Source: an uncultured Clostridia bacterium (GTDB taxonomy: Bacteria; Bacillota; Clostridia; Lachnospirales; CAG-274). Taken from it: a stretch of DNA of 43,861 nucleotides. The position numbers and the translations under genes were made by a program. The stretch is from NCBI GenBank assembly GCA_944383875.1, contig CALWRD010000174.1:1-43861 (forward strand), in the 5' to 3' direction. Below the pieces are notes generated by a model. It was not told the DNA's origin and did no database searches. It worked only from the letters and a program-made list of their open reading frames with translations. The first letter of the stretch is position 1, and each line of letters opens with the position of its first letter. Positions 41,019 to 43,754 of the stretch are shown in pieces.

Positions 41019-41495
41019 TTGAATGAAAAGTGTTGTTGCTTTACGGGGCACAGGAAGATAGACAATGATAAAAAGGAAAAAATAAGGGCAGAGCTTAAGA
41101 ATATACTTACAGGGCTTATAGAGGAAGTCTGCACCTGTTTTTATGCCGGAGGAGCTTTGGGCTTTGACACTATTGCCGCCTTAACCGTCCTTGAATTAAA
41201 AAAATCATATCCGGATATCAGGCTTATACTTGTTTTCCCTTGCAAAAGTCAGACTAAGGGATGGAATATAAAGGAGATTGCTATTTACAAGTACATAAGA
41301 CTGCGCTGTGATAATTATGTGTACACCTCTGAAAAATATACCTCGGGCTGTATGCACAAAAGGAACAGGTATCTTGTGGATAACAGCAGTATCTGTGTTT
41401 GTTATCTTACAGGCAGCAGGGGCGGAACGGTTTATACCGTAAACTATGCACGGCAGCAGGGTCTTAAGGTAATTAATATTGCCGATTCGGTTTAG
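41019..41495 (+). CDS. SLOG/DUF1273 (YspA-like) protein
   Basis: 158 residues from TTG 41019 (weak AGGGG site). CCFTGHRKI at the N-terminus, FYAGGALGFDTIAA at about 41-54 and RNRYLVDNSSICVCYLTGSRGGTVYTVNYARQQGLKVINI at the end are the signature of DUF1273/SLOG Rossmann-like proteins, thought to bind nucleotide-derived ligands. Free-standing members are of unknown role. Control by its own XRE repressor suggests a conditional response gene. Confidence 0.82.
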   Translation: MNEKCCCFTGHRKIDNDKKEKIRAELKNILTGLIEEVCTCFYAGGALGFDTIAALTVLELKKSYPDIRLILVFPCKSQTKGWNIKEIAIYKYIRLRCDNYVYTSEKYTSGCMHKRNRYLVDNSSICVCYLTGSRGGTVYTVNYARQQGLKVINIADSV

Positions 41496-41642
41496 GATTG
41501 TCACTGCAAAAATATGGTTGCAATCTCCTTTTTTATGGTATAATTAATTGATATAAATGAAAATAAGTTTTACATCCGCTGAAGTTTTCTTAACCCCAAA
41601 ACTTTTTAACGCAGATAAATTTATTTTTGAAAATTTCAATTA

Positions 41643-42496
41643 AATATAGGTTTTGGTAAAACCTATGTGTAAAATCTTTTTCTATGTTACCGCAACATAA
41701 ATATGCTTTTTCTTTTCCCTTAATCCCACAAAAGGGATTCCTACTTTTCTGCGAGAAAAGTAGGCAAAAGCACCGCTACTTCCGAAAGCGCGGAGCACGG
41801 CTTAGGGGCGGGAACGCCGCCCCTAAGAACCCTTATTTCATCGTTCAGGCATTTGCCTTAATTTTTTTAACGCCGCCTGTTTTATAGGCGGCTAAAAATT
41901 GCGGCAAATGCTTTTGTTGGAATTTTAAGTGGTTGTTTTTGTTAGGTAGATTTCTTTTACCGATAGGAGGGGCATTAAATTATAAGTTTAGTTGTTATTG
42001 TTAGGTAGTTTTCTTTACCTGTAAGTAGTGTAATAAATTATAAGTTAAGTTGTTTTTATTGAATTTAACTCTAATAAAAAAATAACAGTTATCTGTTGAT
42101 AACTATTTTATACAAATATTCAGGATAAACTAACTTAACAGTAACCTTTTGCCTAAAAATGATATATGAACTTCGGGCAAACTAAAACAAGCTAACAATA
42201 ACAACCAACTAAAATCCCAACAAAAGCATTTGCAAAGATTTTTAGCCGCCTATGCAACAGGCGGCGTCAAGAAAATCAGCGCAAATGCCTTAGGGACAAA
42301 ATAAGGGTTCTTAGGGGCGGCGTTCCCGCCCCTAAGTCGTGCTCCACGCTTCGAAATTAGTGGCGCTTTTGCCTACTTTTTTCGTAGAAAAGTAGGAATC
42401 CCATTTGTGGGATTTAAGGGAAAGTAAAAGATAGCAGATTTATGTTGCGATAGTGAAAAAAAGATTTTACCCATAGGTTTTACAAAAACCTATAAT
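41643..42496. repeat. Long imperfect inverted repeat of nested hairpins
   Basis: Left arm about 41643-41946, right arm about 42191-42496, complementary along nearly their whole length with scattered mismatches and small gaps, around a 244-bp spacer. Each arm itself contains hairpins: ATAGGTTTTggTAAAACCTAT, AATCCC/GGGATT, CCTACTTTTCt...AGTAGG, CTTAGGGGCG...CGCCCCTAAG and GCCGCC...GGCGGC. The sequence is non-coding; a 67-codon frame at 41684 lies wholly inside it and is not a gene. No transposase is between the arms. It looks like two inverted copies of a chromosomal intergenic repeat. Confidence 0.8.
41932..42048 (+). repeat. Two tandem copies of a 58-59-bp unit
   Basis: Unit 1 (41932-41990) and unit 2 (41991-42048) both run gttgtt(t/a)ttgttaggtag...aaattataagtt; a third copy begins at 42049 and fades after about 20 bp. 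They lie at the left-arm/spacer border. A small hairpin AGTTATC-tgtt-GATAACT follows at 42087-42104. No gene is visible in the spacer. Confidence 0.7.
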
Positions 42497-42530
42497 CTAT
42501 TATCATATACAAAGGAGATTTTTTTCTGAT

Positions 42531-43754
42531 ATGGATAAGCTTAGCTATGCAAAGGAATTAATAAATTTTATTGACGGCAGTCCCTGTACCCCATGGGCGG
42601 CTCACAATGCAATTAATATGCTTAAGTCAGCAGGTTTTGAAAAGTATAAGGGTGAGCTTAAGCAAGGGGGAAAGTATTACTTTACACGTGGCAATGGGGT
42701 AGCTGCGGTTATTGTGGGCAGCGGTGGACTGCGTATCGGAGCGGCACATCTTGACTCTCCTGCCCTTGTGCTCAAGCCTGCTCCCGAACTTATCTCGGAG
42801 GGGCATTATGTACGGCTTAACTGTGAGGTATACGGTGGCGCAATACTCTCTACATGGCTTGACAGACCATTGGGAATTGCAGGCAGGGTGGCTGTTGAAA
42901 GCGGTGGTCTTATGCCGGAGGTGAGGCTTTACAAAAGCAATCGTCCTCTTTGCATAGTACCGAATTGTGCTCCACACCTTAACAGGGAAATAAATTCGGG
43001 TTTTGCTTACAACAAGCAGAGGGATATGCTGCCGATTTTTTCACTTAATCCCGAGGAACGTATTTTGGACACTGTGGCAGCCGAACTTGGTGTATCAACG
43101 GAGGATATACTTGACTGTGAGCTGTATTGCTATGAGGCGGACGGCGGCTGCCTTATCGGTGAGGATATGTTAAGCTGCGGCAGACTTGACGACCTTATGA
43201 TGAGCTATGCTTTGCTTAGAGGTATATGTGAGGCTGATGGCGGCAATACTTCCGTTGTTGTTCTGACTGATAATGAAGAGGTGGGCAGCCTTACTATGGG
43301 CGGAGCAAGAGGCGGCTTTGCTTATGAAGTGCTTAAGCTTGTACTCGATGGAGATTTGCGTACTTCCCTTGAGGGTACTGTGGCTATCTCCGCTGATATG
43401 GCACATGCCGTCAATCCTTCCCATCCGGAGCTGCACGAGCCTGTTTCAAGACCTTATCTTAACTGCGGTATGACACTTAAGCGTGCAGCGGATAAAAGCT
43501 ACAGCACCGATGAAATAAGCGGAGCAGCATTTAAGCATATTTGCCGCAGCATCGGCATAGAATATCAGGAGTTCCTGAATCCATCGGACAAGCGGGGAGG
43601 AACTACCATAGGTCCTATGTTAAGTGCGGCTTTGGGTATACACACGGCGGATATAGGTGCGCCTCTCATTGCCATGCATTCAATCAGGGAGCTTGGTGGC
43701 ACTGGGGATGCATTGGACGTCTATAGGCTGTTTAAAGGTTATTTTGAACTGTAA
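42531..43754 (+). CDS. M18 family zinc aminopeptidase
   Basis: 407 residues, full length. Metal and catalytic residues: H73 (AAHLDSPAL), D220 (SCGRLDDL), E249/E250 (TDNEEVGS), D289 (ISADMAH) and H383 (IAMHSIREL), in M18 order. Removes N-terminal acidic residues (aspartyl aminopeptidase type) from peptides in the cytosol and assembles as a dodecamer in known members. AAAGGAG lies 13 bp before the ATG, a long gap. The gene is next to the inverted repeat, with TATAAT at 42491-42496 where the right arm ends. Confidence 0.93.
   Translation: MDKLSYAKELINFIDGSPCTPWAAHNAINMLKSAGFEKYKGELKQGGKYYFTRGNGVAAVIVGSGGLRIGAAHLDSPALVLKPAPELISEGHYVRLNCEVYGGAILSTWLDRPLGIAGRVAVESGGLMPEVRLYKSNRPLCIVPNCAPHLNREINSGFAYNKQRDMLPIFSLNPEERILDTVAAELGVSTEDILDCELYCYEADGGCLIGEDMLSCGRLDDLMMSYALLRGICEADGGNTSVVVLTDNEEVGSLTMGGARGGFAYEVLKLVLDGDLRTSLEGTVAISADMAHAVNPSHPELHEPVSRPYLNCGMTLKRAADKSYSTDEISGAAFKHICRSIGIEYQEFLNPSDKRGGTTIGPMLSAALGIHTADIGAPLIAMHSIRELGGTGDALDVYRLFKGYFEL

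Follow-up and report, generated by a model that had tools for sequence, protein, structure and literature searches.

Within the window (the whole 43,861-nucleotide stretch of DNA analyzed here), a YpsA (SLOG-family) ORF at 41019-41495 and an M18 aminopeptidase ORF at 42531-43754 flank a palindrome of 846 bp (41647-42492) with a TA on either side. No ORF of at least 80 aa is listed within 41647-42492 and hairpin structure fills the interval, in agreement with the gene-free interval of the original prediction. An inverted-repeat search recovered three segments (41786-41961 with 42176-42351, 84%; 41706-41786 with 42350-42430, 86%; and 41626-41681 with 42458-42513, 82%) that join into a single palindrome, the arms of which are 82-86% complementary and separated by ~214 bp. 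When one strand of the element was folded as RNA, its energy was -461 kcal/mol versus -200 ± 8 kcal/mol in shuffles (z = -31), and folding with DNA parameters gave z = -27. The predicted inverted repeat of ~850 bp with internal hairpins is thus real, and its earlier boundaries were correct to a few bases; by the logic of the flanking TAs, the element proper is 41647-42492. We refer to this unstranded, two-armed palindrome with the ends TAGGTTTT...AAAACCTA as a family A element, which is defined by its sequence, its inverted repeats, its recurrence in the genome and an empty site in a congener (G001).

The terminal inverted repeat, hairpin TAGGTTTTGGTAAAACCTA, is present at both ends of the element, and a terminal-motif scan of the genome placed it at 41647-41665 on the plus strand and at 42474-42492 on the minus strand (as a minus-strand match at 42474-42494). 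Inverted repeats and covariation then define a series of hairpins in the left arm, all on the plus strand. Hairpin 1 (41740-41764; CCTACTTTTC...GAAAAGTAGG) is followed by CAAAAG, hairpin 2 (41770-41796) pairs CCGC with GCGG, hairpin 3 (41801-41827; CTTAGGGGC...GCCCCTAAG) is followed by AACCC, and hairpin 4 (41849-41911) consists of an outer stem and an inner GCCGCC/GGCGGC hairpin at ~41872-41893. The right arm (42221-42396, minus strand) carries four hairpins as the reverse complement of the left, with hairpin 1 at 42372-42396 and hairpin 3 at 42310-42336, as determined from the inverted repeats and an alignment of arms.

A sequence search for other copies revealed that the element family occupies ~30 distinct places dispersed over the window's own genome (G000), and the genes adjoining the copies differ from copy to copy. 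The terminal motif TAGGTTTTGGTAAAACCTA, with up to three mismatches allowed, was found at 36 genome sites versus 1 for a reversed-pattern control. Copies come in several forms, which we describe from 24 of the ~30 stretches: a two-armed form of ~740-910 bp; a one-armed form of ~400-500 bp (found at L030-L037), which usually includes an additional ~75-nt hairpin unit and has a right end of another kind; and a short form of 79-170 bp made of outer parts only. A solo end, TATAGGTTTTACAAAAACGTATA, is present at L070. One copy (L037, 1950-2415) lies between ORFs resembling dnaA and dnaN, where the congener has no insertion. These results bear out the proposal of a chromosomal repeat family, and dispersal together with orthologous empty sites in the congener bears out that of a non-autonomous mobile element.

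By manual count, TA lies immediately outside 29 of 35 clear ends, and the other six have probably drifted. A genome search of the congener found no copy of the family, and its counterpart of the window locus is an empty site. In the window the order is TTATGGTA-TA-[small element B]-TA-[element A]-TA-ATCTATTATC, and in the congener it is TTATGGTA-TA-ATTTATTATC (empty-site sequence TTATGGTATAATTTATTATC), exactly one TA standing in place of TA-B-TA-A-TA. Because the congener's site has a single TA, elements A and B both entered one TA, each duplicating it; base by base, this duplication is read from the one empty site that aligns well enough. The original target TA (41541-41542) falls within GGTATAAT, whose congener counterpart is the intact GGTATAATTTATTATC; the TA common to B and A is at 41645-41646, and the duplicated TA of the right flank is at 42493-42494 (all unstranded). 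Counterparts of four further loci (dnaA-dnaN, hpt-ftsH, the L035 pair and L030) are likewise uninterrupted in the congener. The target TA sits within a TATAAT that has been re-formed on both sides of the insert and that, by its position, looks like a possible -10 box of the M18 gene, for which it may serve as promoter; promoter-like sites in the element are otherwise at chance level. In a second congener (G002), a one-armed element lies between ~40-bp direct repeats (CCCATAATTGCAGAGGAAAATAATAACTC; L044, ~1960-2045 and 2355-2410), unlike the TA duplication seen in G000.

The neighboring family B element (41543-41644, unstranded) is a small, TA-flanked inverted-repeat element of ~100 bp (ATTAATTGA...TTTCAATTAAA), delimited by copies elsewhere, sequence comparison and the empty site. 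Its outer part recurs in 14 elements or fragments elsewhere in the genome, and at six places families A and B are joined via exactly one common TA. Family B (TA-CTTAATTG...CAATTAAG-TA) is also seen at L026 (5562-5699), L029 (1938-2072) and L030 (2456-2539).

A third family, family C, is a ~63-nt unit with three hairpins, a GCA/TGC closing stem and a constant AAAAAAGTAAT loop. It occurs within the arms of some family A copies (L019, 2659-2720; L033, 7280-7341; and L036) and, inverted, inside hairpin 3 of one G002 element, so that in this genus elements built of hairpins serve as insertion sites for further hairpin units. Roughly twenty free copies (e.g., at L292, L299-L302 and L305) are present in each of G000 and G002, some in tandem. 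Across the three hairpins and the closing stem, family C is 99.5% paired, with changes on both sides in 9 of 19 pairs, and it has no Rfam match. In many one-armed copies, part of hairpin 2 has given way to a second insertable unit, GTGCGATTTTTTCTGAAAGAAAAAGATCGCATCCCTACGGGATTTGAATTTATTTCATAAATTCAAACTTGCAC, likewise composed of three hairpins and closed by a stem, which is seen at L034 (2168-2245), L026 (2310-2395) and L033 (7160-7240). A broader and rather doubtful proposal is that mobile hairpin modules exist as a class in this genus; the element arms, the ~75-nt unit GTGCGATT...CTTGCAC and family C (~63 nt) would be examples. Such closed multi-hairpin units would insert into each other's arms or stems with the fold kept, would be maintained by structural selection and perhaps by a structure-recognizing mobilization other than a classical transposase, and would have relatives of the arm grammar recurring in scattered Clostridia.

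In wider searches, the arm grammar is real but scattered rather than universal. A covariance model of the arm had matches in 12 of the 391 genomes searched from the class, with several copies in some of them, and the better matches keep the order hairpin 1 - CAAAAG - hairpin 2 - hairpin 3. Of 148 genomes from the class searched for the pattern of hairpin 1 plus CAAAAG, 8 contained it, several of them many times over, versus 2 control matches. The hairpin 2 loop GCTACTTCCGAAGCG was at chance level (3 matches versus 4 in the control) among 398 genomes of the phylum. We rejected a pan-bacterial conserved cassette: among the matches listed, the hairpin 3 pattern appears in many phyla, but this pattern picks up any family with that stem. 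GC-rich hairpin chains, each hairpin followed by ACCCC, occur in Synergistaceae, Treponema and Oscillospiraceae genomes among the matches listed (L099-L204) and could be related or convergent. A phage origin was also rejected, as no similar DNA was found in a phage collection. Elsewhere in the window, a long, tightly packed run of ORFs on one strand (3498-31572) looks, by layout alone, like a phage or prophage block.

Each of the 10 two-armed copies tested consists of one T1 arm and one T2 arm. Arm identity is 84.6% within a copy, 84.5% between unlike arms of different copies and 92% between like arms of different copies. Because the T1/T2 pairing is universal and identity within a copy equals that between unlike arms, the palindrome predates dispersal and moved whole; the same two values (84.6% versus 84.5%) indicate that the arms of one copy have not been converted by each other since dispersal. 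Judged from these sequence comparisons, the ancestral form of the mobile unit is the palindrome with both arms, and one-armed copies, which have a right end of their own, represent a distinct form. The original prediction had suggested an element inserted twice in opposite directions, and one-armed copies (L030-L037) from which such a pair could be built by independent insertions do exist. However, they have another right end in common, all 10 two-armed copies have an identical T1/T2 pair and the same joined centre, and the arms within a copy resemble each other no more closely than unlike arms taken from different copies. Two opposite insertions may have given rise to the first two-armed element; for this family they are otherwise contradicted, and we consider them highly improbable. 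We aligned 25 arms (22 from G000 and 3 from G002) over 44 pairs in five helices and found 98% pairing, which dropped to 42-53% when the partner was slid by 1-3 columns. Compensatory changes occurred in 14 of the 44 pairs (47 cells, many of the both-side changes being inherited by several arms), versus 1-5 pairs in slid controls and none as high in 500 shuffles, so neither of the two outcomes that would have counted against the original prediction, a lack of other copies and a lack of compensatory changes, was observed. Both-side changes affect 3 of 11 pairs in helix 1 and 7 of 9 in helix 4, CCGC/GCGG of hairpin 2 becomes CCAC/GTGG in six arms, and hairpin 3 is 99% paired and almost invariant. 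The elements of G002 have the same arm grammar and architecture with diverged sequence, and the outer stem of their hairpin 4 is a different sequence that still pairs. Long palindromes are substrates for quasi-palindrome correction, and the covarying stems are just the palindromes on which such correction acts; compensatory changes could thus reflect a mutation process (i.e., replication strand switching that corrects imperfect palindromes) and not selection on hairpins. However, the long arms within a copy, which form the larger palindrome, have not been homogenized, unpaired flanks and loops drift while the stems stay 98% paired, and G002 stems are outright different yet paired. These arguments do not reach short local hairpins, and we regard strand switching as unlikely but by no means negligible.

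The hairpin content, intergenic location, copy number and inversely paired arms of the element would also fit a single-strand hairpin element of the REP/REPIN type, mobilized by a Y1 (RAYT or IS200/IS605-like) transposase, and hairpin 3, with AACCC behind it, is reminiscent of hairpins that have a conserved flanking sequence. The TA target with its duplication argues against this, since IS200/IS605 chemistry is not known to make a TA duplication. Moreover, Y1 (PF01797) was not found in G000 or G002 and gave a single broken match in G001. REPs are defined as palindromes of 20-40 bp with a GTAG or CGTC tag on one end (PMC3733652), whereas the element is ~40 times as long as a REP and its ends, TAGGTTTT and AAAACCTA, carry neither tag; a REP/REPIN-like origin is accordingly quite improbable. 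If the element acted on adjoining genes as a terminator module or as a cis-acting RNA regulator, this would account for its terminator-like sites (3 versus 1.0 expected) and for a window copy placed in the apparent -10 box of the M18 gene with TATAAT restored on both sides. Yet neighbors differ at every copy, the congener does without the element at the same locus, and promoter-like sites are no more frequent than chance. Rfam 15 yielded no family above the gathering score in the window or at five other loci, with sub-threshold matches at chance level, and we consider a regulatory module of this kind improbable.

We conclude, with a probability of roughly 80%, that the element is a non-autonomous, TA-targeting, MITE-like DNA transposon that is large, modular and conserved in structure. 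A trans-acting transposase would recognize the palindromic ends TAGGTTTT...AAAACCTA, move the entire palindrome, insert it at TA and duplicate the TA. This enzyme would be of the DDE type and supplied in trans; this genome may no longer encode it, or its gene may have escaped assembly. Searches of G000 for DDE_3 (IS630/Tc1-mariner), Y1 (IS200/IS605) and DDE_Tnp_1 found none of them, nor did any element turn up that carries a gene between such ends; with 189 contigs and 92% completeness, absence from this assembly is not proof. Repeated insertion sequences are typically lost from fragmented assemblies. The DDE_Tnp_1 of G002 was rejected as a source, as its two places lack these ends. The hairpins would be kept for the element itself, either in transposition or in insulation or processing of crossing transcripts, and such a role is likelier than one for a single host gene because the hairpins are kept at unrelated loci. 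If correct, this reading widens the range of bacterial MITEs to include a large and modular form with two arms and demonstrably conserved internal structure. Filled and empty sites in congeners would then provide dated insertions with which to ask why hairpins persist in a parasite-like element, and nested hairpin units (family C in particular) make the spread of short structured DNA without an evident transposase testable.

TA-ended bacterial MITEs (Correia/NEMIS, RUP and ERIC) have been reviewed, with a size below 200 bp that is descriptive there (PMC2229807). Like these, the element is non-coding, multi-copy and mostly intergenic, has terminal inverted repeats and long stem-loops, bears TA at its ends with TA target duplication and presumed mobilization in trans, and holds no transposase gene (PMC2229807). 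Bacterial MITEs are also recognized by ends that match a full transposon with a trans-acting transposase, a match that the element lacks in its 189-contig, 92% complete assembly. At 846 bp, as against 100-200 bp for TA-type MITEs, it exceeds the published range of <200 bp and is therefore not an ordinary member of that class, though short forms of 79-170 bp exist. It differs further in its two-armed palindromic build, each arm being an ordered chain of hairpins with covariation, in its several size classes and in the other hairpin units inside its arms. REP/BIME/REPIN sequences with RAYT (PMC3733652, PMC3116915) resemble it as intergenic hairpins in many copies, often in inverted pairs; unlike them, it is far larger, has no GTAG/CGTC tag, duplicates a TA target and comes without a Y1 found. 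Literature searches for the element sequences returned nothing relevant. Mitochondrial mobile hairpin modules (double-hairpin elements and yeast GC clusters) belong to another genome and another size range, and a mechanistic link would be by analogy alone; like the units described here, they are small, are made of hairpins and have their insertion sites between genes. They also insert into one another.
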